A DNA stretch of 34,431 nucleotides from a virus. The position numbers and the translations under genes are program-made. Positions 3,316-25,679 of this stretch are shown here, in pieces (the stretch's first letter is position 1; every line of letters starts with the position of its first letter). The notes beneath the pieces are model-generated. The model searched no databases. It worked only from the letters and a program-made list of their open reading frames with translations, and had not been told where the DNA came from. The DNA lies in the IMG/VR virus record IMGVR_UViG_3300046514_000307, positions 1-34,431 of that record. One strand, given 5' to 3'.

Positions 3316-3488
3316 GGCTGCCTCCGCAGATTCTCAGCAATCACGGTATGCAAATGACGCATCGCACCCCACTGAATCAACTGCTCCGTCGTGACCGTTG
3401 GTTTTGGGTCAGGCACGGGAAAGAAACAGCCGCAGCGCAGGGCATAGAGCGTGGCTTCGGCAATCGCCTGGGCTTGTGCGTTCGTCAT
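3312..3488 (-). CDS. Small hypothetical protein, 58 aa
   Basis: Fills a gap of about 170 nt exactly, with ATGA overlaps at both ends: its ATG overlaps the stop of the 213-residue gene and its TGA overlaps the ATG of the 121-residue gene. The product is MTNAQAQAIAEATLYALR, then CGCFFPVPDPKP and a C-terminal helix (EQLIQWGAMRHLHTVIAENL). The perfect double overlap makes it a convincing gene despite its size. Function unknown; the CGC pair might bind metal. Confidence 0.6.
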   Translation of the reverse strand: MTNAQAQAIAEATLYALRCGCFFPVPDPKPTVTTEQLIQWGAMRHLHTVIAENLRRQP

Positions 3489-4126
3489 GGCTGCACCGGA
3501 GGATCAGGGAGTGGCATCCGACGAGCAATAGCCTGTGACGTGCAGGCGTAGAACGCGACCATCACCGTCGTCAGCTTCGTCACGAGGTTATCGTCAGCAG
3601 CTTCCGGCGCGTCAGGCCGCAGCCACTCTGACGCAAAGCCACGAGCCAAGCTCTGCACCAGATGCGGATCGTGCGGTCGGGGCGTCGGCGGGTCCCCCTC
3701 GGTGTCCGCGACTGGTGTGGCCAGTTCCTTCGGCAGTTCACCCCAAGCCTGCGTAAACGCATACGCAGCATCCTTGCCGTGCTCGTAGGCCACTATATCC
3801 TCCGCGCGGGCTAGCACCCATTCCAACTCTGCAATCTTTTGGCTGGTCTGTCGGTCCCCCTCGGTGTCCGATTTCAGAATCCCGAGCACATCAGCCGCAC
3901 TCGGCAATGTCGTGTCATCCTCCGGTCGGTCCCCCTCGGTGTCCGCGATTTTGCTCTGATGCATCGGATAACCCATAGACCTCATCTCTTGAACGACGTC
4001 GGCTGGCTCCTGTCGGTCCCCCTCGGTGTCCAGCACGGCCAGCATGTCAGACCTTTTCACCCATGCATCCCCGGCAAAGAAAGATACGGCGAGCTCTCGG
4101 AGTCGTCGGGTGCGCTCGTCAGTCAT
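3485..4126 (-). CDS. Hypothetical protein with four DTEGDR repeats, 213 aa
   Basis: Starts MTDERTRRLREL, closely matching the start of the 130-residue gene at 4975-5367 (RTRRLREL, then AVLDTEGDR), so the two are paralogues at their N-termini. DTEGDR or DTEGD occurs four times, near residues 33, 62, 87 and 141, splitting the protein into dissimilar segments (for example QKIAELEWVLARAEDIVAYE is helical). The repeat is almost identical at DNA level (see repeat entry). No known domain. Between genes with ATGA overlaps on both sides. The segments could be independent small modules tethered by the repeat, but this is inference. Confidence 0.65.
   Translation of the reverse strand: MTDERTRRLRELAVSFFAGDAWVKRSDMLAVLDTEGDRQEPADVVQEMRSMGYPMHQSKIADTEGDRPEDDTTLPSAADVLGILKSDTEGDRQTSQKIAELEWVLARAEDIVAYEHGKDAAYAFTQAWGELPKELATPVADTEGDPPTPRPHDPHLVQSLARGFASEWLRPDAPEAADDNLVTKLTTVMVAFYACTSQAIARRMPLPDPPVQP
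3691..4031 (-). repeat. Four copies of a 17-20 bp in-frame repeat
   Basis: The plus-strand core GGTCCCCCTCGGTGTCC is identical at 3691-3707, 3853-3869, 3928-3944 and 4015-4031. Three of the four also share the preceding GTC, giving 20 identical bases. Spacing is irregular (162, 75 and 87 bases) but always a multiple of three, and all copies encode DTEGD(R). Identity at wobble positions suggests recent DNA-level copying rather than protein-level convergence. Confidence 0.85.
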
Positions 4127-4413
4127 GGCTGTTCAATCCACTGCTTCCAAAGGTTCAACGTCACGGAGCGCACGGACAGCCCTCGTTTTTTCACCTTGGC
4201 CTTCAGGGCGTCCGCGAGCATCGGCGGCACGCGGTCGATGTCAATCTTGATTCTCCTCTCGGTGCGCGGGGTGAAGTCGCGGCTGTAGCCTCGCTTGGTC
4301 ATAGCCGAGATATTAGGGCATTGCGCGAGGATGGCTTTCTCGGAAATTGAGGCCAAACACCGATCGCATTGACCCGCTCGCTGCCCAATAGCATGCGAGG
4401 CATGCACAATCAC
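4123..4413 (-). CDS. Putative ribbon-helix-helix-like DNA-binding protein, 96 aa
   Basis: I place the start at GTG 4413 because GGAGGATCA sits just upstream and the GTG overlaps the previous stop (GTGA). The N-terminal third carries CDRC and a later cysteine (AQC), a possible metal knuckle. The C-terminal 55 residues read RRIKIDIDRVPPMLADALKAKVKKRG, then LSVRSVTLNLWKQWIE: a basic beta strand followed by two helices, the pattern of Arc/CopG-type ribbon-helix-helix repressors. An ATG at 4302 would encode this domain alone. It lies second in the operon behind the dual-operator promoter at 4.93-4.97 kb, so autoregulation is an attractive inference. Confidence 0.5.
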   Translation of the reverse strand: MIVHASHAIGQRAGQCDRCLASISEKAILAQCPNISAMTKRGYSRDFTPRTERRIKIDIDRVPPMLADALKAKVKKRGLSVRSVTLNLWKQWIEQP

Positions 4414-4925
4414 GACTGATCCTCCGGGCACTGTGACGCCTCGCAGCGCCCGAAAACGAGTGCCTCGCCGCCTGAGCCTATCCACCGCAGCGCCGACATC
4501 GACGCGGGCCAATGCTCAGGCTTGCGGTTGAGGCATCGAGCCGACGGCTGCATCGGTTCGATGTTGAGGGCATTGGCTGAACGATGGAGGAAGGCCGGAA
4601 CGACACGCGATCCACACGTCTCGCTGCGCTCGTTCCAGGACTGTTGAATGCCGGCAAGCGCCTGCCCTGCGCCGTCCGGACTATTGGGAACACCGGGCAG
4701 CCCCTTCGTGGTGTCGGGAATCCGGGAGAACCGCTCAAGGCGGCCTCCCTTTGAGAGCGCGTTGAGAGAGGCCTGACGATAGGCCTCTTCGTAGAGATCG
4801 GAACGGAGGCCCGAACGGACCTCGATCCGACCGGAGCCGGCCCAATTGCCGGCCTGATCCGTGAGGGTGAGAATGGCGGCCCGTTGGCCGCTTAGAAACT
4901 CGATGGTGCCGTAAAACTTAAGCAT
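4410..4925 (-). CDS. Hypothetical protein from a leaderless mRNA, 171 aa
   Basis: The start at 4925 (MLKFYGTIEFLSGQRAAIL) is set by the promoter: the -10 box ends 6 nt before this ATG, so the message should begin at or next to the start codon, and no Shine-Dalgarno exists. A longer frame from 4982 would read through the promoter. The first 80 residues look like an alpha/beta fold (AAILTLTDQAGNWAGSGRIEV, DLYEEAYRQASLNAL). The remainder is less structured, with scattered cysteines and tryptophans (PEHWPASMSALRW). The 3' end contains the ribosome-binding site of the next gene. Function unknown; as the first gene behind a controlled promoter it could be an early regulator. Confidence 0.5.
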   Translation of the reverse strand: MLKFYGTIEFLSGQRAAILTLTDQAGNWAGSGRIEVRSGLRSDLYEEAYRQASLNALSKGGRLERFSRIPDTTKGLPGVPNSPDGAGQALAGIQQSWNERSETCGSRVVPAFLHRSANALNIEPMQPSARCLNRKPEHWPASMSALRWIGSGGEALVFGRCEASQCPEDQS

Positions 4926-4931
4926 GAAAGG

Positions 4932-4960
4932 ATTATACACAATACCTGTATTGATGTCAA
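4932..4960 (-). promoter_or_regulatory. Consensus sigma70 promoter (leaderless)
   Basis: On the minus strand TTGACA (4960-4955), a 17-nt spacer, and TATAAT (4937-4932): a perfect match to the bacterial sigma70 consensus in both hexamers and spacing. The ATG of the 171-residue gene begins 6 nt after the -10 box, which places the transcription start at about the A of the ATG. It directs leftward transcription through the small-gene and terminase operon. Confidence 0.85.
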
Positions 4961-4973
4961 GTATACCGGTATT
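4941..4973. promoter_or_regulatory. Twin operator-like palindromes
   Basis: AATACCTGTATT (4941-4952) lies in the promoter spacer and TATACCGGTATT (4962-4973) abuts the -35 box upstream. Both fit the dyad AATAC-N2-GTATT, the second with one arm mismatch. Their centres are 21 bp apart, two helical turns, so two bound dimers would lie on the same DNA face and cover the -35 element. This is the layout of a repressor-controlled promoter. Confidence 0.7.
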
Positions 4974-4974
4974 C

Positions 4975-5367
4975 CTAATCATTCTTCGTATCTTGCGGGA
5001 GGACGGTTCGTTGTAGTCCTTCGTTTACAAACGCCCGTAATCGCGTCAAGCTTGGCCCCTGCGGCAGCGCATCGAGCAAATCGGCGCGTAGCAATACCGC
5101 CACATCCGCGCGAACTACGTTCTTTCGAGATTCTGCTTGTAACCACTGGCAACCATCCTCGGCGCACGATGGATTGAGGTATTTCGCGGCTCGCATGTTG
5201 GCTAACGGATCTGGCCGTCGGTCCCCCTCGGTGTCCAGCACGGCCGCGAGTTCGTCAGCGCAGTAGCCATAAATCCGCAATTCAGCCTCATCGTTGCTGC
5301 GAGCGTAGCCGCGCCAAGTTTCCAGTAGCTCTCGGAGTCGTCGTGTGCGGCGATCCTCGGTGGTCAT
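4975..5367 (-). CDS. Hypothetical protein with one DTEGDR repeat, 130 aa
   Basis: Paralogue of the 213-residue gene over its N-terminus: MTTEDRRTRRLRELLETW, then ADELAAVLDTEGDRR. The latter half (YLNPSCAEDGCQWLQAE, RADVAVLLRADLLDAL, LTRLRAFVNEGL) is mostly helical, with a Cys pair. Start ATG overlaps the preceding TGA (ATGA). Its stop is immediately followed by the twin operators and promoter of the next transcription unit. No known family. Confidence 0.6.
   Translation of the reverse strand: MTTEDRRTRRLRELLETWRGYARSNDEAELRIYGYCADELAAVLDTEGDRRPDPLANMRAAKYLNPSCAEDGCQWLQAESRKNVVRADVAVLLRADLLDALPQGPSLTRLRAFVNEGLQRTVLPQDTKND
5220..5236 (-). repeat. Fifth copy of the in-frame DTEGDR repeat
   Basis: The same 17-bp core as in the gene at 3485-4126, here 1.2 kb away and again in the DTEGDR frame; the 20-bp extended form (with preceding GTC) is complete. 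The next nine bases (AGCACGGCC) also match the copy at 4015, consistent with gene duplication of that particular copy. Confidence 0.8.
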
Positions 5368-5486: not shown

Positions 5487-5596
5487 AGGAACCCCCGATA
5501 CCAGGCACGTAGACACGGCAAACAGAAATAGGTCGCCCCGTCTGGGCCGTGCGTGACCATCTTGCCCGTCTGCTGGCACACAGCGCAGGCCGTCAT
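5483..5596 (-). CDS. Zinc-ribbon microprotein, 37 aa
   Basis: MTACAVCQQTGKMVTHG, then YFCLPCLRAWYRGFL: two CxxC knuckles (residues 4-7 and 25-28) with a beta-hairpin-like spacing of 17 residues, a classic small zinc ribbon. The ATG overlaps the upstream nuclease stop (ATGA) and the stop overlaps the next gene's GTG. Paired CxxC motifs and exact coupling on both sides support it. Probably a nucleic-acid or protein-binding accessory. Confidence 0.55.
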   Translation of the reverse strand: MTACAVCQQTGKMVTHGPDGATYFCLPCLRAWYRGFL

Positions 5597-5934
5597 AACA
5601 ACAGCACCTTGAGCGTCTCCAGACAATCACCCTTCGCCAGTTGGGCCGGTGTATAAATCAGCACCCGGAACCCCGCCAATTGGAGCAGGTTATTCCGCTC
5701 ATAATCGCGCAAGAGACCCGTCCCGCTCGAGTGCCCGCCTTTCGTCCAGATGCCCCCATTGCGTTCCACGACAAGCCGGGCCTCCCGAAAGAAATAATCC
5801 ACCCGAAACTTGCGCCCCGGCACCAAGCCCTCGACTTCCACCTCCGGCCGCGGTAAGCCGTGCCGCATGCAGAGCTCGGGGAACGGATCAAATCGGACTC
5901 GATCGCGCGCCTTCGCCTGGCTGGTGGCGTTCAC
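5593..5934 (-). CDS. PD-(D/E)XK nuclease, DUF559/Vsr-like, 113 aa
   Basis: Small endonuclease of the restriction-endonuclease fold. HGLPRPEVEVEGLVPGRKFRVDYFF followed by ARLVVERNGGIW is the signature of the phage family usually written FDFAW...AVEIDGG: the aspartate at about residue 46 and glutamate at about residue 57 would be catalytic. HSSGTGLLRDYERNNLLQLAGFRVLIYTP is the conserved second half. The usual acidic/Asp-Gly after the glutamate is here ERNGG, a mild deviation. Homologues act as nicking or repair-like nucleases and often lie in phage replication-recombination blocks, as here. Start GTG at 5934 overlaps the upstream stop. Confidence 0.8.
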   Translation of the reverse strand: MNATSQAKARDRVRFDPFPELCMRHGLPRPEVEVEGLVPGRKFRVDYFFREARLVVERNGGIWTKGGHSSGTGLLRDYERNNLLQLAGFRVLIYTPAQLAKGDCLETLKVLLL

Positions 5935-6137
5935 CAGTCCATCCGCGCTGAAGTCCGTGGTTCGCCCTTGTAGACCCTAGAGGCCGGCGTCAGCACGGTG
6001 CCGAAGAGGGCGGCGAGACGTTCGCCTTCCGCCCGAGTCAAGTGCTTCGCCTCGAGCGCATCCTCGATCTGCGTCCGTTGATGGCAGGCCACCGGGTTGG
6101 TCGTGGGACAGGGAGGCCGATGCGGGCAATCCTTCAT
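5931..6137 (-). CDS. Hypothetical protein, 68 aa
   Basis: Begins MKDCPHRPPCPTTNPVACHQ, with three cysteines and two histidines in 20 residues, a plausible small metal site. The rest is helical (RTQIEDALEAKHLTRAEGERLAALF). ATGA overlap with the upstream 84-residue gene and GTGA overlap with the nuclease downstream. Not assigned to a family. Confidence 0.6.
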   Translation of the reverse strand: MKDCPHRPPCPTTNPVACHQRTQIEDALEAKHLTRAEGERLAALFGTVLTPASRVYKGEPRTSARMDW

Positions 6138-6388
6138 CGCCGCACCCGTTCCGCCGCGGCCACGAGCGCCTTAAACCGGTCCTGATAGCCCCCGGTGCCG
6201 TAGGCTGTCGCATACGTGCGGGCCTGGGCCAGATTCGGCATGGTCAAGAGGATGCTATTGGTGCGTCGATCCAGTGTCCGCACAATATCCCGCAACAGCC
6301 GTTGATGGCCGCCGTTGCCGACAATCGAACGCGTCACCAGCATCAATTCAGCCGCGGTCAACGTGGCGCGCACCGGTTCCCAGTTCAT
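6134..6388 (-). CDS. Hypothetical helical protein, 84 aa
   Basis: Start taken at ATG 6388 (MNWEPVRATLTAAELMLVTR), which overlaps the preceding TGA as ATGA; two further ATGs lie 6 and 27 nt upstream. The product is basic and helical (HQRLLRDIVRTLDRRTNSILL, DRFKALVAAAERVRR). No recognised domain. Confidence 0.6.
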   Translation of the reverse strand: MNWEPVRATLTAAELMLVTRSIVGNGGHQRLLRDIVRTLDRRTNSILLTMPNLAQARTYATAYGTGGYQDRFKALVAAAERVRR

Positions 6389-6555
6389 CGCCATCGCCGG
6401 AGCCCCCGCCACCATTCCAGTTGCCGGGCGTCGTGGTCATGCGTGATGACCCACGAGGCACTCATGGGCTGAGGCCAGATCGGTCGCCGCGGCCACCAGC
6501 GCCACAACGCAAACACGCAGGCCGCCGAGAGGGTGAGCAAGATCGACAGTTGCAT
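6385..6555 (-). CDS. Small single-TM membrane protein, 56 aa
   Basis: MQLSILLTLSAACVFALWRWW is an N-terminal membrane anchor followed by a basic, tryptophan-rich cytoplasmic tail (WPRRPIWPQ, ARQLEWWRGLRRWR). The start at 6555 overlaps the HNH stop by one base (TGATG). Function unknown. Confidence 0.5.
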   Translation of the reverse strand: MQLSILLTLSAACVFALWRWWPRRPIWPQPMSASWVITHDHDARQLEWWRGLRRWR

Positions 6556-6818
6556 CAGTGACAACCTTTCGTGTGGCGGTCTGCATGGCATTGGCTACAC
6601 AGATATTCGATGTTGTCCAACGTCCACTTGCCGCCGCGGCTTCTCGGTTTGATGTGATGCGCGTGGCCCCATGTCCCCGTCCACTTCCCGCACGCCTCGC
6701 AACTGAAATCCGCCCGCTTCACGGCTTGGTGCCGCACGGTGTTCCGGACATAGCCCTTCATGCGGTCCATCCGCGCGTGCATCCGTTTCCGGGATTCAGG
6801 CTTTGGTTGGGGATGCAT
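6555..6818 (-). CDS. HNH endonuclease, 87 aa
   Basis: Complete HNH domain: CEAC zinc knuckle (residues 40-43), HAHHIKPRSRGG with the catalytic histidine pair, LDNIEYLC, and CSQCHADRH as the second knuckle. This is a metal-dependent DNA nuclease. Free-standing HNH proteins of this size in phages often assist packaging or act as homing-type nickases; here it sits in the replication-recombination block. The start at 6818 is chosen over a longer frame because it overlaps the upstream stop (TGATG) and the longer extension is the shadow of the membrane-protein gene. Confidence 0.85.
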   Translation of the reverse strand: MHPQPKPESRKRMHARMDRMKGYVRNTVRHQAVKRADFSCEACGKWTGTWGHAHHIKPRSRGGKWTLDNIEYLCSQCHADRHTKGCH

Positions 6819-6994
6819 CACAACCACATCGCTGCCAGGATGACCAACAGCACACAGGCGCCGAGCACATCCGCGGCTCCATATGTTTTGGGCGCCTGCT
6901 CGGCCCCCATCAGACCTTTCCAAATCATGCTGACGCATCCGTAGCCTATTGAGAACGTCACCACGCCGAGCGCAATCCATTGATGGGTCTTCAT
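6818..6994 (-). CDS. Small two-TM membrane protein, 58 aa
   Basis: MKTHQWIALGVVTFSIGYG and ADVLGACVLLVILAAMWL are two membrane segments linked by about 20 polar residues (WKGLMGAEQAPKTYGA). ATGA overlap with the upstream gene, TGATG overlap with the HNH gene. Exact coupling at both ends supports a real gene. Holin-like topology, but the replication-block location argues for another role; unassigned. Confidence 0.6.
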   Translation of the reverse strand: MKTHQWIALGVVTFSIGYGCVSMIWKGLMGAEQAPKTYGAADVLGACVLLVILAAMWL

Positions 6995-7239
6995 GATGCA
7001 TCGCTCGCCACGGGAAGAATCACCCCATGCAGTTGTCGTGTGCCTCCATCGTATTGCACGGAGAGTTCCGGCCGGCCATGGAGTCCGTCATGCCGCTCAC
7101 ACAGAGAGGCGAGCCACGCATCGCGCGTCCAGACCACGAAACTAGTAAACGTGCCCCGCTCCTGCACGGCAATCGGAAACACGCCATTCGGCTTCCGGTC
7201 CCAGACGGCCTTGATCGTGACTCGCTTCGTGACCGTCAC
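6991..7239 (-). CDS. Hypothetical protein, 82 aa
   Basis: Alternating beta-type sequence: VTKRVTIKAVWDRKPNGVFPIAVQ, TFTSFVVWTRD, ELSVQYDGGTRQLHGVILPV. Composition is that of a small beta-barrel or OB-like fold, but no family is recognised. The start overlaps the stop of the NinB-like gene (ATGA). Confidence 0.6.
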   Translation of the reverse strand: MTVTKRVTIKAVWDRKPNGVFPIAVQERGTFTSFVVWTRDAWLASLCERHDGLHGRPELSVQYDGGTRQLHGVILPVASDAS

Positions 7240-7658
7240 AGGTCATCCACGGGGGTCATGACGCCCAGTTCTTCCGCGGCGAATCGCTGCACCTGCTTGA
7301 CGTATTTCATAAACTCCACGACGGTCAGGCTCCGCGTGGACCCGCCCATTACCAACTGGCCCCGCACGTCCCCGTTACCATCCAGAAAGGCCAGTTCCTT
7401 TGGGAGAAACATCTGCTTCATCGCCTCGTGCGTTTCGTTGGGGGTATAGCCCGTATACTCCGCAATCGGCCCGATGACACATTTCCAGTAGTGTCGATTT
7501 TGCGGCAAGCTCCGGTTGGCCTGCAGCCGCTGCACGTGGATCTCATAGTGGCCATCTTTCAGTTGCTGGGCGAGCGCCTGGAAGATGCGCTTGTCGTAAG
7601 AGAACACGCCCCGCCTGGCCTCTCCGAGCACCGTGAAATCCGCCGCCACGCCAGCCAT
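7236..7658 (-). CDS. NinB-like recombination protein, 140 aa
   Basis: Resembles the NinB/YbcN-type family of phage recombination mediators (single-strand DNA binding, lambda Orf-like). Key segment: LPQNRHYWKCVIGPIAEYTGYTPNETHEAMKQMFLPKE, the QNRxYW...MHEAxKxxFL pattern common to this group, and STRSLTVVEFMKYVKQVQRFAAEELGV at the C-terminus. The first 60 residues carry the expected strand-helix region (FSYDKRIFQALAQQLKDGHYEIHVQRL). It lies next to the SSB-like gene, in keeping with a replication-recombination role. No catalytic nuclease motif is expected or seen. Confidence 0.6.
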   Translation of the reverse strand: MAGVAADFTVLGEARRGVFSYDKRIFQALAQQLKDGHYEIHVQRLQANRSLPQNRHYWKCVIGPIAEYTGYTPNETHEAMKQMFLPKELAFLDGNGDVRGQLVMGGSTRSLTVVEFMKYVKQVQRFAAEELGVMTPVDDL

Positions 7659-7660
7659 GA

Positions 7661-8047
7661 CTAGAACGGGATGTCGTCGTCGGTTAACGGCTCGTCCATC
7701 GTCTCCACCGGCGGCGGAGCCGTGGCCTTGGGCGCCCTGACGCGAATCCCTCCGACCCGCTTGCCGGCATACATCACGTTCGGATCGGTGTAGAGCACGA
7801 GCCGTTTGCCCGTCCAGTGGTCTGTGTCATCCGACCCGAAAATCTCCTCGCAGATCTGGATGTTCGTGAAGTTCAGCACGAACGGCTTCTCCATTTCGCG
7901 GAAGATCAGGCACCACTTCTTTTCCTCGCCTGCGCCTTCGGCCGCGACGTTCTTCTGCATGACGGCCCGCACCGTCACCAGCGCCCCCGAGCCGACGTCT
8001 TCTTTCTTGAGAAACTTGCTTTCACGCATCTCGCTCGTTTTCGGCAT
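7661..8047 (-). CDS. SSB-like protein with DDDIPF tail, 128 aa
   Basis: Single-strand DNA-binding-like protein. It ends in DEPLTDDDIPF, the acidic tip by which SSB proteins recruit replication partners. The body is beta-rich and OB-fold-like: GALVTVRAVMQKNV, KKWCLIFREMEKPFVLNFTNI, KRLVLYTDPNVMYAGKRVGGIRVRAP. The final segment (LYxDPxVxxxGKxVGGIRVR) is a recurrent pattern in small phage proteins of this type. Ribosome-binding site AGGAGA. Adjacent to NinB-like and close to the initiator-like gene, so replication is the likely context. Confidence 0.65.
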   Translation of the reverse strand: MPKTSEMRESKFLKKEDVGSGALVTVRAVMQKNVAAEGAGEEKKWCLIFREMEKPFVLNFTNIQICEEIFGSDDTDHWTGKRLVLYTDPNVMYAGKRVGGIRVRAPKATAPPPVETMDEPLTDDDIPF

Positions 8048-8056
8048 CGTCGTCTC

Positions 8057-8809: not shown

Positions 8810-8913
8810 GCGGCCTCCTTCCACTTGCGCGACTTGCAGGCCGGGCACATTTTCACCACCGGCACCCGGGGCACCCAGACATGGCCGCACCGCTTACAGT
8901 TGATCGTCTTCAT
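8806..8913 (-). CDS. Zinc-ribbon microprotein, 35 aa, leaderless
   Basis: MKTINCKRCGHVWVPRV, then MCPACKSRKWKEAA: two CxxC knuckles (residues 6-9 and 23-26) with the GHxW turn typical of short zinc ribbons. The ATG follows a TTGACA-type promoter by 6 nt and lacks a Shine-Dalgarno, so translation is predicted to be leaderless. Small paired-CxxC proteins like this are common in phages and may bind nucleic acid or RNA polymerase; that role is inference. Confidence 0.65.
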   Translation of the reverse strand: MKTINCKRCGHVWVPRVPVVKMCPACKSRKWKEAA

Positions 8914-8919
8914 GGAGAG

Positions 8920-8948
8920 AGAATATACCTATGATAATAGGCTGTCAA
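8920..8948 (-). promoter_or_regulatory. Leaderless promoter with dyad in the spacer
   Basis: Minus strand: TTGACA (8948-8943), 17-nt spacer, TATTCT (8925-8920), then 6 nt and ATG (8913). The -10 matches four of six consensus bases; TATATT two bases upstream matches five but gives a 15-nt spacer. The spacer contains CCTAT-N4-ATAGG (8928-8941), an operator-like dyad at nearly the same place as in the 4.9-kb promoter. Confidence 0.65.
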
Positions 8949-9723: not shown

Positions 9724-9726
9724 GAA

Positions 9727-9952
9727 GCGTTACGGTAACGCTCAATGCGTTACATGTCAATAGCGGAGAGCGCGCAAGGATGGTCGTGGACTGTCATTGA
9801 CATGTCATTGACATTGCTGACATCGAATACACGCGTGTCAGCGATACAGTGTAACGACGCACTGCGTTACTACTGCGTTACTGATGCGTGTCGCCGTGTC
9901 GGTAACACGGTTGTCGCGTGTCGGCGTGTCAGTCACGCCGTGTCGATGTGTC
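9727..9952. repeat. Iteron-rich region, candidate replication origin
   Basis: Non-coding and repeat-dense. Family 1: GCGTTAC, at 9727, 9747, 9864 and 9875, with inverse copies at 9735 and (six of seven bases) 9851; 9727-9741 is a perfect 15-bp palindrome GCGTTACGGTAACGC, and ACTGCGTTACT is an 11-bp direct tandem at 9861-9882. Family 2: TGTCATTGACA, itself a palindrome, in perfect tandem at 9792-9802 and 9803-9813. Family 3: GTGTC, seven times, six of them as three doublets spaced 8 bp (9888/9896, 9918/9926, 9940/9948). ACACGCGTGT (9829-9838) is also palindromic. Repeat arrays beside an initiator-like gene are typical of theta origins. Confidence 0.6.
9732..9760 (-). promoter_or_regulatory. 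Candidate promoter for the initiator-like gene
   Basis: TTGACA (9760-9755), 17-nt spacer, weak -10 TACCGT (9737-9732), then 8 nt and the ATG at 9723. The spacer lies within the dyad GTAACGCTCAATGCGTTAC (9735-9753). Geometry resembles the two leaderless promoters, but the -10 matches only three consensus bases, so confidence is lower. Confidence 0.4.
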
Positions 9953-10057
9953 AAGCGTGCATTGGCCCCGTGCGGCGACGAGCCCCCATGCATCCGATGG
10001 TCGGGGAGGGCCACCGGTTCCCAGCTGGAGCGCCTGCGGCCCGCACAGGGCCAACCC
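9953..10057. other. Intergenic spacer
   Basis: About 105 non-coding bases between the iteron array and the two-TM gene. It holds a short GGCCC/GGGCC stem with a 5-nt loop near 10037-10052 and, over the stop codon of the two-TM gene, ACCCT-T-AGGGT (10054-10064). No T-run follows either, so I do not call a terminator. Confidence 0.35.
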
Positions 10058-14742: not shown

Positions 14743-15833
14743 GGTGTCTGTTTTCCATATTTCGGCATGAGCGACTTTTGCCCACGCACGGCCCGGCTGG
14801 CCATGTCGGCGTTCATTTGATCCTCCGAGACCCCAATCCCCCGATCGAGGAGGGCTTGCGCGGGATTCGCCTGACTCTCGCGTAATGCTTTGATGGCCGT
14901 CACGGCACCAGGCGCCGTGGTCGCGCCCCCATGCACCAATTGCGCGGCCGCGGCTTCTTCTTCCGGCTTCAGGGTCATGCCGGCCCGCTTCGCCCAGATG
15001 GCGAGCTCGTTATAGATCTTCGGGGCAATCTTGCCACTCGCCGCCGTGGCCGGCGGTTGATAAGCGCCGCCGGTCTGGTCGCGAACAGATTGGGCCGCCG
15101 GATCCAGGATAGGACCGGTAGGCCGCACGGCTGGCGCGGCAGCCTCGGCCGTTGGCGCCGCCTGGAGCGTGGCCGCCAGATCCGGCTTGACGTTCCCCGC
15201 CTTCGCGGCATTCTCAATCGTCAGCACCTTCGTAAGATCTTTCGAGCTCAAGGTATTCGGGCGGCCAATCCCCGCCGGCACCGGCGGCATGGGCTTCGGC
15301 CCAGCGGCGGGCACCGGGTCCGGCACATTCGGGGCACTCGGGCCATTCGGAGACCACGCCGAAAAGGCCATCGCGGCCATCGACGCGAGCGGGGAGGGCA
15401 CGCCCATCTTCTCAAGCGTCGTTTTCGCCAATTCGTATTTGATGGCCGGCGCGGCCTGGCTCATCGTGGCTTTGAGCCCCGCCCCCACCTTCGCCGCGGT
15501 GCCACCGGCGCCCGTCACCGAGCGCAGAATCATGCGACCGGCCTGAGCGCCCATCAGCGCATCTTCCGGGGCAATCCCCTGACCTTCGTCCGTGCCGATC
15601 ATGTTGCTGTCGGGTCGTGGCTGATCCCCGACCATCGTCACCGGCACGCCGAGAATGGACGTCTTTTTTGAGGGCGGCGCCGTCTGGGCCTTTTGATACG
15701 TGTTATAGGCCTGATTTTCCTCAGGCGTCATCTTCTTGACGAGCGCCGTCACTTCCGCCCGATCGGCGGGATTCTCCGAGCGGCCCTGTTTATAGAGCCA
15801 CTGATAATCGGCGTCCGTCAGGGTATCAGCCAT
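14739..15833 (-). CDS. Ala/Pro-rich internal virion protein, 364 aa
   Basis: No named family. The N-terminus MADTLTDADYQWLYKQGRSENPADRAEVTALVKKM is helical; residues 95-155 contain a glycine-alanine hydrophobic region (MILRSVTGAGGTAAKVGAGL, LASMAAMAFSAW) able to enter a membrane; then proline-rich linkers (VPDPVPAAGPKPMPPVPAG) and a helical C-terminus (KPEEEAAAAQLVHGG). Long low-complexity Ala proteins with a membrane-prone segment, positioned after gp10-like genes, are typical ejection proteins of P22-type phages. Assignment is by context. Confidence 0.55.
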   Translation of the reverse strand: MADTLTDADYQWLYKQGRSENPADRAEVTALVKKMTPEENQAYNTYQKAQTAPPSKKTSILGVPVTMVGDQPRPDSNMIGTDEGQGIAPEDALMGAQAGRMILRSVTGAGGTAAKVGAGLKATMSQAAPAIKYELAKTTLEKMGVPSPLASMAAMAFSAWSPNGPSAPNVPDPVPAAGPKPMPPVPAGIGRPNTLSSKDLTKVLTIENAAKAGNVKPDLAATLQAAPTAEAAAPAVRPTGPILDPAAQSVRDQTGGAYQPPATAASGKIAPKIYNELAIWAKRAGMTLKPEEEAAAAQLVHGGATTAPGAVTAIKALRESQANPAQALLDRGIGVSEDQMNADMASRAVRGQKSLMPKYGKQTP

Positions 15834-22670: not shown

Positions 22671-25600
22671 TTATGCCACCCGCTGATTGCTGTGACTCGC
22701 CCATGCCGGCTTAAAGTTACTCGGCACCACCACCCCGCCCACCGCCACCGCGGTGGACGTGCCCGCCGCCGATCCAACCGAAATCGCATTCCCGCCTTGT
22801 CCCAGCACCAGGGCGGCCCCGAGGGCGGTGCCCGTGCGCACCAATAGGGCCGTGCCCACCGCTTGCACCACCGCATCCCCTTGCGCCACGCCGCGTCCGC
22901 TCCCGCTACTGACCGCGAGCACGGAGGACGAGGCATTGACGACGCCGATCGCCGTGCTGAGGCCAACCCCCACCGCGACCACCGCCGATCCGCCTTGGGC
23001 ATCCCCCGTCCCAACCGAGAACGATTGTCCCACGCCGACGACGGTGGCCACGCCCGCCACCACCCCAATCGAGCCGAGCGCCGGGGCGCCCGTGACCGTG
23101 GCGGTGCCCGTGACCGTGCCCACACTCAGCGCGGCGCCCGCCCCGATCCCGAGGACGACGGCTTGTCCCGTCGCCGCGGCCCCGCGCACCACCACGCCGG
23201 TGCCCACCGCGGTAACGGTCGCGCCGCCGAAACTCTGCGCCTGATTCCCGAGTTGCTTTTGCCCATCCGCTCCAGCCGCTCCGACCGCAATCCCCACGCC
23301 CGACGCACTGACCGTGCTCGCCCCCAGGGGAGTCGCCACGCCGACCGCCGCGCCAATGCCTTGGCCCGTCCCGCTGATCGACCCGCCCACCGCCGTGACG
23401 GACGCCGCGCCACTCGCGGCGCCAAGGGTCACCTGCGTCAAGAGCCCCACCCCGAACACATCCGCATGCCCATCGACGGCCCCATCGGCCTCGCTATTGG
23501 GCGTGACCGGCAGGGTCGGCGTGGCCACGATGGCAGTGGTGCTGTTGAGGGCGGCTCCCGGCACCGTGTCGGTAATGGTCTCGAGCGCCGAGATGGCATA
23601 CGTGGGCAACGCCGGCAACGTAATCGTCACCACCGTCGACGACGTGCGCACGACCGCCGTATCAGGAATCAACGCGCGAATCGCATTCCAGCCATGCGTT
23701 TCGCTTTGCGCGCTGACCAACCCATTCAGGATCGGCCGCCGCGCATCCACGAAGGCGCCATAGCGCCCCACCACCGAGGCCGTCCCGAACGAGGCCCCGA
23801 TGGCTTGCGAGAGGGGTTGCCCGACCGCCAGCGCGGTCGCCGTGCCCACACTCGCGCCCGGCTGGGCCGAGGTAAAAACGCCCGCCCCTTGCACGAGCGA
23901 GCCGGGAATGGTGGCACTAAAATCATCGAACCGCGGCAAGGTCGCCGCATCCCCCATCACGCCCATACAGCCCGGTTTCCCGCTGATCAGGCTCGTATCA
24001 CTCTGCGTAAACAGTTGCGTGCCGTTCGCCAGGACCGTGAGCACGGACCCGGCCACGCTGATCCGGAATTTGGTCAGCGTATCGAGCGGCGTCGTGACGG
24101 CCGCACTGTTCAGGAGGGTTTCCACGCCGAGCACGCGTTTATAGAGCGAGACACTCGAGGAGAGGATGCGCAGATAATAGCCACTGCCCACGCCATCCAT
24201 TCGGACAGCGGGACCGGCCTGCGAGGCCACGAACACGCCAGGCGTCGGCACGTCGGTGAACACTTCCGCGAACTGATCATCGACAAAGGTGCCCCGCACG
24301 CGCACCGCCGTCGAGGCATTCGCGGTGACCGGTTTCAGATAGAGCGAGCTGGCGGTCACCCAGGCCGTGCCAAGGGTCGTCTCCCACGTAAAGCCGAGTG
24401 AGCCCCGATTGAAATCGTCCGTAAAGGGCACCGCGCCGATCCCGAGCGAGGAGGCCGCGCCCACCCCGCTGACGGTGGCTACCCCGGCCGACACCGCATT
24501 ACTCGCGCCCGTCTTGACACCTAAAACGGTGGCGCCCCCGGTCGCCGCGCCGACGCTGACGGCCGTGGAGAGGCCGATCATGGCGGCCGTGGCCAAGCCC
24601 GCGATCGTGCCCGCACTCACCGAGGTGGCACGTCCCACCCCCGTGGCCGTGGCCGTGCCGGATGAGGCGCCGCTCGAAACGGCCGTCGACAGGCCCACCG
24701 CCGTGACCGTCGCCTGGCCCGACACGGCGCCCACATTCAGGGCCGTAATCCCGAGCGTCGGCGTGGCGATCGCATCGATGCCACCCGCCAGGGCCACCCC
24801 CGGCACCGTGTCAGTAATCACCTCCGAGGCCGTGATGTCGTAACCGGAGACGGCCGGGAGCGTAATCGTCACCACCGTGGCCGAGGTGCGGACGACGGCC
24901 GATTCCGCGATCGTCGGTTTCTTGGCGTCCCAGCCCGTGCCCTCCGCTTGCGCCGAATCGAGTCCATTCAGGATCGCGCGCCGGAAGCTGGAGAACGACG
25001 CCACGCCGGTCGCCGTGCTCGCCCCCGCCACCACGCCAATGCTGGCAATTTCTGACAGAGCCAGGGCCACGAACGCGACGTCATCGGAGACCGCCGTGCC
25101 ACCGATCGCGAAATCTGCCGTGCCGGCCGTCGTTTGCCGAATCACGCTGGAATAGAACGCACTCGCGCCAATATTGAACGTCTGGACCGTCGTGCAGTTG
25201 CCGTTCGGGGTGAAGGCCGCCGACGTCGCACCACCGCCATAGAGCGCGGCGACCGCGATCGCCGTGCGCCCCCCATAGGCCAGCGTGACGGACGGATCGG
25301 CCTGATTCTCACTCACGCTGCCCGTGACAAAGGCCGTCGTATCCCCAGGCGCCCCGAAGGACATGCTCACAAAATGCATGTCGTCTGTCGTATTGGTATT
25401 GAGACTCGCGCTGACCGTTTGATTGCCGGTCGGAATGCCCGCGCCGAGGAACCATAATTCCGCGGCACCCGGCTCGGTGACGGTATCGGTCGCGCGAATC
25501 TTTCGGGTCATCGCCACGCCACCATACGTGACGGCCGAGACATGATCCGTGCTGCTCGTGCCGTGGACAATCGCCACGACAATCGCTTTCGCCGTGCCGC

Positions 25601-25679
25601 TGGGCACATGCGTCCACGTCTGCGGGTTCGTCGTGCCCGTGCGCTCGACTTCAACCGAGTTGAGGAAGGTGATCGCCAT
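22671..25679 (-). CDS. Modular repeat tail/surface protein with lectin-like domain, 1002 aa
   Basis: Domains in order. Residues 1-215: beta domain (WTHVPSGTAKAIVVAIVHG...YGGVAMT, ELWFLGAGIPTGNQTVS). 233-309: a 77-residue module (RRAILNGLDSAQAEGTGW, VVRTSATVVTITLPAVSGYDI). 315-410: about five 20-residue repeats of GxxxGxATVxxVGLxTAV type. 418-590: concanavalin/LamG-like domain (DDFNRGSLGFTWE, YYLRILSSSVSLYKRVLGVETLL, FRISVAGSVLTVLANGTQLF, PRFDDFSATI), probably carbohydrate-binding. 647-723: second copy of the module (RRPILNGLVSAQSETHGW). 732-985: about a dozen Gly/Ala/Val repeats. Probably a host-binding surface protein. TGATG overlap with the upstream gene. Confidence 0.65.
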   Translation of the reverse strand: MAITFLNSVEVERTGTTNPQTWTHVPSGTAKAIVVAIVHGTSSTDHVSAVTYGGVAMTRKIRATDTVTEPGAAELWFLGAGIPTGNQTVSASLNTNTTDDMHFVSMSFGAPGDTTAFVTGSVSENQADPSVTLAYGGRTAIAVAALYGGGATSAAFTPNGNCTTVQTFNIGASAFYSSVIRQTTAGTADFAIGGTAVSDDVAFVALALSEIASIGVVAGASTATGVASFSSFRRAILNGLDSAQAEGTGWDAKKPTIAESAVVRTSATVVTITLPAVSGYDITASEVITDTVPGVALAGGIDAIATPTLGITALNVGAVSGQATVTAVGLSTAVSSGASSGTATATGVGRATSVSAGTIAGLATAAMIGLSTAVSVGAATGGATVLGVKTGASNAVSAGVATVSGVGAASSLGIGAVPFTDDFNRGSLGFTWETTLGTAWVTASSLYLKPVTANASTAVRVRGTFVDDQFAEVFTDVPTPGVFVASQAGPAVRMDGVGSGYYLRILSSSVSLYKRVLGVETLLNSAAVTTPLDTLTKFRISVAGSVLTVLANGTQLFTQSDTSLISGKPGCMGVMGDAATLPRFDDFSATIPGSLVQGAGVFTSAQPGASVGTATALAVGQPLSQAIGASFGTASVVGRYGAFVDARRPILNGLVSAQSETHGWNAIRALIPDTAVVRTSSTVVTITLPALPTYAISALETITDTVPGAALNSTTAIVATPTLPVTPNSEADGAVDGHADVFGVGLLTQVTLGAASGAASVTAVGGSISGTGQGIGAAVGVATPLGASTVSASGVGIAVGAAGADGQKQLGNQAQSFGGATVTAVGTGVVVRGAAATGQAVVLGIGAGAALSVGTVTGTATVTGAPALGSIGVVAGVATVVGVGQSFSVGTGDAQGGSAVVAVGVGLSTAIGVVNASSSVLAVSSGSGRGVAQGDAVVQAVGTALLVRTGTALGAALVLGQGGNAISVGSAAGTSTAVAVGGVVVPSNFKPAWASHSNQRVA

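Follow-up and report, generated by a model that had tools for sequence, protein, structure and literature searches.

The question raised by this locus is what a perfect sigma70-type promoter, accompanied by two palindromes, does in front of a pair of small phage genes. The stretch of DNA analyzed here, called the window, is a viral record 34,431 bases long with a GC content of 63%, and its recognizable genes lie on the minus strand. The PHROG matches in the window include a P22-type major head protein, the head closure protein Hc3, a scaffold protein, NinB, and HNH. On the minus strand, the elements are arranged in the order GAATACCGGTATAC-TTGACA-TCAATACAGGTATTGTG-TATAAT-CCTTTC-ATG. The promoter and the dyads occupy a 49-bp gap between the open reading frame (ORF) that ends at 4975 and the one that starts at 4925, and the gap is 65% AT in a genome of 63% GC. 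The dyads are centered at 4946.5 and 4967.5 and are therefore 21 bp, or two helical turns, apart. The sequence-only reading had described these elements, all of which are present on the minus strand, and every element that it named was right except the length of the ribbon-helix-helix (RHH)-like protein encoded behind them. The features are listed in Table 1.

Table 1. Features of the promoter-operator and the two genes behind it (window coordinates).
Feature	Position	Strand	Basis
Operator dyad O1 (putative), directly upstream of -35	4962..4973		Minus strand AATACCGGTATA; L013 AATACCGGTATA at 2668-2679
-35 hexamer TTGACA	4955..4960	-	Sequence; kept in L013 at 2681-2686
Operator dyad O2 (putative), inside the -35/-10 spacer	4941..4952		Minus strand AATACAGGTATT; L013 AATACCGGTATT at 2689-2700
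-10 hexamer TATAAT, 17-nt spacer	4932..4937	-	Sequence; L013 has TACAAT with equal spacing
CCTTTC then ATG; predicted transcription start on or beside the A of ATG 4925	4923..4931	-	Sequence, no Shine-Dalgarno; 6-nt spacing recurs at 8948 and in G002
First gene, 171 aa	4410..4925	-	Unlike its L013 counterpart; structure model
Second gene, 59-aa RHH-like protein, proposed repressor	4123..4302	-	66% identity over 58 aa to L013 3112-3291; weak fold matches

The promoter and dyads exceed chance. This is the sole 12/12 sigma70-type promoter in the window, whereas about 0.001 such sites are expected per window (order-0 model, three spacers, both strands) and none occurred in 60 order-2 simulated windows. 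Only two sites within one mismatch of AATACCGGTATT exist in the window, both at this promoter, and there were none in eight first-order simulations. Since near-perfect dyads are absent elsewhere in the window, the regulator appears to be dedicated to the cassette promoter. A repeat of another kind lies in the two ORFs that flank the cassette. It is GTCGGTCCCCCTCGGTGTCC-like, has five copies (3684-4032 and 5213-5237), and reads in frame as the peptide DTEGD(R), with four copies in the ORF at 3485-4126 and one in that at 4975-5367; accessory ORFs of G002, the colinear relative described below, carry a similar AEGD-type repeat.

A second instance of the arrangement came from a search of IMG/VR with a degenerate pattern of two dyads 21 bp apart, in which no TTGACA, promoter, or gene was required. 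The pattern occurs in four contigs; three of them have no promoter of the cassette form, and the fourth is a phage contig of 13,294 bp, IMGVR_UViG_3300046791_000240 (L013). It reads GAATACCGGTATAC-TTGACA-ACAATACCGGTATTTGC-TACAAT, with a -35/-10 spacing of 17 nt. The promoter-operators of the window and L013 are identical at 37 of 43 nucleotides, and at 18 of the 24 positions that the search left free; the identity of the dyads was imposed by the pattern, and dyad conservation therefore cannot be set against a neutral rate. A wobble-position test of dyad conservation was not used as evidence because the pattern fixed 19 of those positions. The TTGACA between the dyads is conserved, although the pattern did not require it. 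Moreover, the second gene behind the L013 promoter encodes a protein of 60 residues that is homologous to its window counterpart (2e-29) and played no part in finding the contig. A third copy of the dyad, AATACCGGTAAA, is located at 3091-3102 in L013, directly before the ATG of this gene. The search for conserved AATAC-N2-GTATT pairs in relatives, which the sequence-only reading had suggested as a check, thus had a positive outcome: L013 has such a pair and has kept the RHH-like gene as well.

Comparison of the two DNAs with blastn gave only two clearly significant matches, namely, the RHH-like gene (72.7%, 2e-23) and the operator-promoter (94% over 34 nt, 3e-8). Outside the region of the RHH-like gene, no protein matches in L013 were obtained for the window ORFs. 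The intervening genes of the window and L013 are unrelated; therefore, the regulator and its operator are what stays together. The cassette is known from these two instances. The L013 region that separates the cassette from the terminase genes carries ORFs for sialic-acid-type biosynthesis (5555-8056; NeuB-, NeuC-, and NeuA-like by eye).

The homology to the L013 protein begins at ATG 4302; therefore, the second gene product most likely consists of 59 residues, and the 96 residues assigned to it earlier are too many. By eye, its sequence follows the pattern of a strand (IKIDID), a helix, a G-L-S turn, and a second helix, directly after which the protein ends without a C-terminal neutralizing tail. 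Neither the window protein nor the L013 protein matched an RHH family profile in Pfam, PHROG, or NCBIfam (E up to 1-10, HMMER filters on), a search that a divergent member may escape. The AlphaFold monomer model is poor (pLDDT 61), and the expected N-terminal strand was built as a helix. With this low-confidence model, about 25 of 30 Foldseek matches were known RHH proteins, including Arc, CopG, AvtR, CdbA, NikA, VapB, TacA, and MazE9, all with E>3, and VIA-align gave Z scores of up to 4.5 (TacA2 4.4, CopG 4.1, and Arc 4.1). The weak structure matches and the sequence pattern suggest that the protein is likely to have an RHH fold. It is also likely to be the repressor that binds the dyads, as judged from their co-occurrence. 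The sequence-only reading had put forward the second gene product as the candidate repressor, and the retention of both the gene and the twin operators in L013 supports this. A degenerate peptide search for the RHH-like protein returned no further members, and its patterns missed even that of L013; tblastn searches with the RHH-like proteins against phage and plasmid records gave no significant match.

The first gene, which we regard as the cargo, differs between the two phages. Homology between the two first genes was considered and rejected, because their products are unrelated, and no relatives of the window product were found in IMG/VR or phages. Residues 1-70 were modeled with middling confidence as a beta-beta-beta-alpha-beta arrangement of RNase H-like topology, and residues 71-171 were modeled as disordered. 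The Z scores against RNase H-fold proteins (6.6-7.3) are too low to tell more than a common arrangement. The order of the secondary structure elements had prompted a HicB-like reading, which was set aside; the matches are RNase H-fold proteins, and HicB is absent among the matches listed. PHROG and Pfam searches gave no match for the first gene or for the 213-aa gene that follows the regulator.

The distance from the -10 hexamer to ATG 4925 is 6 nt, where the transcription start is expected, and no Shine-Dalgarno sequence precedes the codon (the best match to AGGAGG is 2/6). The mRNA structure around the start codon is ordinary (z -0.73). A second promoter in the window, on the minus strand at 8948-8913, reads TTGACA-N17-TATTCT-CTCTCC-ATG and also leaves 6 nt before the ATG of an ORF of 35 residues, which has a zinc-ribbon-like CxxC...CxxC pattern. 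Likewise, G002 has TTGACA-N17-CATACT-CTCTGC-ATG at 36858, with the same 6 nt and at a similar distance before NinB. The -10/ATG spacing looks like a habit of the window's phage group. The geometry makes leaderless initiation at ATG 4925 likely, as the sequence-only reading had claimed. However, the L013 cassette has a leader with a GGAGG Shine-Dalgarno sequence ahead of its first gene; therefore, leaderlessness is neither part of the cassette nor essential to it. The spacer of the promoter at 8913-8948 holds a dyad of its own, CCTAT-N4-ATAGG. Another intergenic stretch of the window, a 334-bp gap at 9724-10057, contains many GACACG, GTAACGC/GCGTTAC, and TGACA repeats immediately upstream of a gene with weak similarity to a replisome organizer; it resembles a region of iterons or an origin, and TTGACA lies close to the start codon.

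The closest colinear relative of the window, G002 (40,160 bp, 74% identity in Hc3), has neither a perfect or near-perfect promoter nor a twin dyad. Because this colinear genome lacks it, the cassette stands outside the backbone of the window's phage group. Within the 1002-aa ORF at 22671-25679, a segment of about 200 bp is repeated with 71% identity (23548-24983), and this repeat is matched in G002 too. In wider searches, the exact 33-nt operator was not found in IMG/VR, and no promoter with a dyad in its spacer and a perfect -10 was found. The promoter pattern with spaced dyads had only one match in 84,980 species genomes, in Terrimonas, which was rejected because it lies inside an open, coding-like stretch and has no -10. 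BLAST matches to the 43-nt promoter in MT835608 and in Vibrio phage 1.249.A, both of which have no twin dyads and no RHH-like neighbor, and in Pasteurella F108, where the match is weak and within a tail fiber gene, were judged to be due to chance. Sampling of Bacteroidota yielded no match, a result that carries no information.

We consider it fairly probable, from the arrangement of the sequence, that the locus is a negatively autoregulated expression cassette in a short-tailed phage with a P22-like coat protein. Upon infection, the host sigma70 holoenzyme would transcribe the cassette at once, translation of the cargo ORF would start on a leaderless mRNA, and the RHH-like protein would be made next. 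Its dimers would go on to occupy the two dyads; cooperative binding is probable, because the dyads share one face of the helix. The bound dimers would cover the -35 hexamer and the spacer and turn the promoter off, and occupancy of either dyad would be expected to block the polymerase. The cargo protein would consequently be made in a brief burst early in infection, comparable to the action of Arc at the P22 Pant promoter. The sequence-only reading had seen in the operators a hint of a phage regulatory switch. A switch of the lysis-lysogeny type is not supported, as the colinear G002 lacks the cassette and PHROG and Pfam scans of a subset of the ORFs detected no integrase or CI-like gene; the anatomy appears to fit a self-limiting accessory cassette better.

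Other explanations of the promoter and its dyads have to be weighed. The position of the cassette, on a single coding strand between recombination genes and terminase, is equal in both phages: it is flanked by NinB (7239-7658) and a TerS-like gene (1605-2036) in the window and by exonuclease/RecT (594-2108) and TerL (9055) in L013. It might thus be a promoter that times late gene expression, with the RHH-like protein delaying late transcription, and no terminator-like site directly follows the cassette. However, G002 has the same late genes without the cassette promoter, and a repressor inside the operon would limit the late genes when they are most needed, which makes this account unlikely. 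We also regard as quite unlikely a toxin-antitoxin-like pair, in which the first gene would encode a toxin that differs per phage and the RHH-like antitoxin would repress the operon through the twin palindromes. The two-gene operon, the RHH-type regulator, the promoter palindromes, and the swapped first partner fit type II modules, and antitoxins are among the structure matches. Nevertheless, the first gene has no significant match to a toxin family in Pfam (window gene only), NCBIfam, or PADLOC, which new toxins could escape, and its model, with the disordered tail, has no evident toxin fold. In addition, the regulator ends after its second helix, without the tail that would neutralize a toxin.

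The dyads may instead be operators for a host repressor that places an accessory gene under host control, with the RHH-like protein doing something else. The sigma70-type promoter implies the host polymerase, and AATACNNGTATT was not recognized as the site of any named regulator, which leaves room for such a repressor. A host regulator would usually have sites in host genomes, and yet the promoter pattern with spaced dyads is absent from the species genomes searched apart from the Terrimonas coding stretch. Moreover, the RHH-like gene is the sole gene common to both operator-bearing contigs, and host control is therefore distinctly improbable. A coding origin of the dyad repeat also had to be weighed, because a frame of 190 residues, starting at an ATG farther upstream (4982), runs through both dyads and reads NTGI-LDI-NTGI. 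If the twin dyads were this peptide repeat, the promoter match would be accidental. In its favor, no stop codon interrupts the frame, whose ATG overlaps the end of the preceding ORF at its stop codon, and the 21-bp distance corresponds to seven codons. However, a perfect promoter would then be an event of about 0.001 expectation, and the GC3 is 37% in 4926-4982 against 72% in the ORF from 4925. In L013, the corresponding frame ends after 61 residues and does not resemble the product of the window, and the first gene uses a different frame, with a Shine-Dalgarno sequence ahead of its start. This explanation is hardly credible.

The negatively autoregulated cassette remains our preferred reading, and it ties an orphan family of small proteins, which was named by no family library tried, to a defined DNA target through co-conservation. 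A single 60-residue protein and a single 33-bp DNA would suffice for a direct test of the regulator-operator pair. A tentative extension, which we hold to be possible rather than probable, is that the cassette is portable: the operator-promoter and its dedicated RHH-type repressor would move together between unrelated phages, the cargo would be exchanged, and the same brief early pulse would result. If this cargo swapping is true, the cassette is a marker for phage genes with a brief early pulse of expression, among which host-takeover and anti-defense proteins might be expected.

Known systems share parts of this design. Type II toxin-antitoxin operons with an RHH antitoxin consist of two genes, encode an RHH-type DNA-binding protein, and have palindromes over the promoter. 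The cassette resembles them in its two-gene operon, its RHH-like protein, and its promoter palindromes, but it has no detected toxin and no C-terminal neutralizing region, and the cargo genes of its two examples are unrelated. The C proteins of restriction-modification systems act at twin operators about two turns apart at their own promoter and often have leaderless starts. The window cassette shares the operator spacing and, probably, the leaderless start; however, the C proteins belong to the helix-turn-helix activator-repressors, and none of the cassette genes was identified as one for restriction or modification. The structure of one such protein, C.Csp231I, has been described (PMC4321490).

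The closest likeness in mechanism that we propose is with Arc and Pant of Salmonella phage P22. In the P22 record (NC_002371, checked), Pant reads TTGACA-N17-TATATT, the Arc operator (14798-14818) lies in the spacer, and the arc coding sequence follows at 14861-15022. An operator in the spacer of a sigma70-type promoter whose operon encodes the RHH-like protein, here as the second gene, is likewise found in the window and L013, as anatomy only. BLASTP of the regulator gave no alignment with Arc and an insignificant one with Mnt (E 0.042 in a two-sequence search); because no sequence homology to Arc was found, the cassette may be said to work like Arc/Pant but not to be a member of that system. 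It also differs in having two equal dyads 21 bp apart, one of which is upstream of the -35 hexamer, in the order of its genes, with the cargo first and the regulator second, and in its probable leaderless start, and no antirepressor (Ant), Mnt, or sar gene is seen in it. The two systems nevertheless share a consensus TTGACA promoter with a dyad in the -35/-10 spacer and an operon that encodes a small protein, of RHH type in P22 and probably so here. Negative autoregulation, which is proposed here for the cassette, and the form of an accessory cassette in a P22-like virion background are further parallels. The immunity I region of P22, the ant moron, has been described as an independently expressed moron (PMC2629481), and the presence of the cassette in the window phage and its absence from the colinear G002 fit that description.
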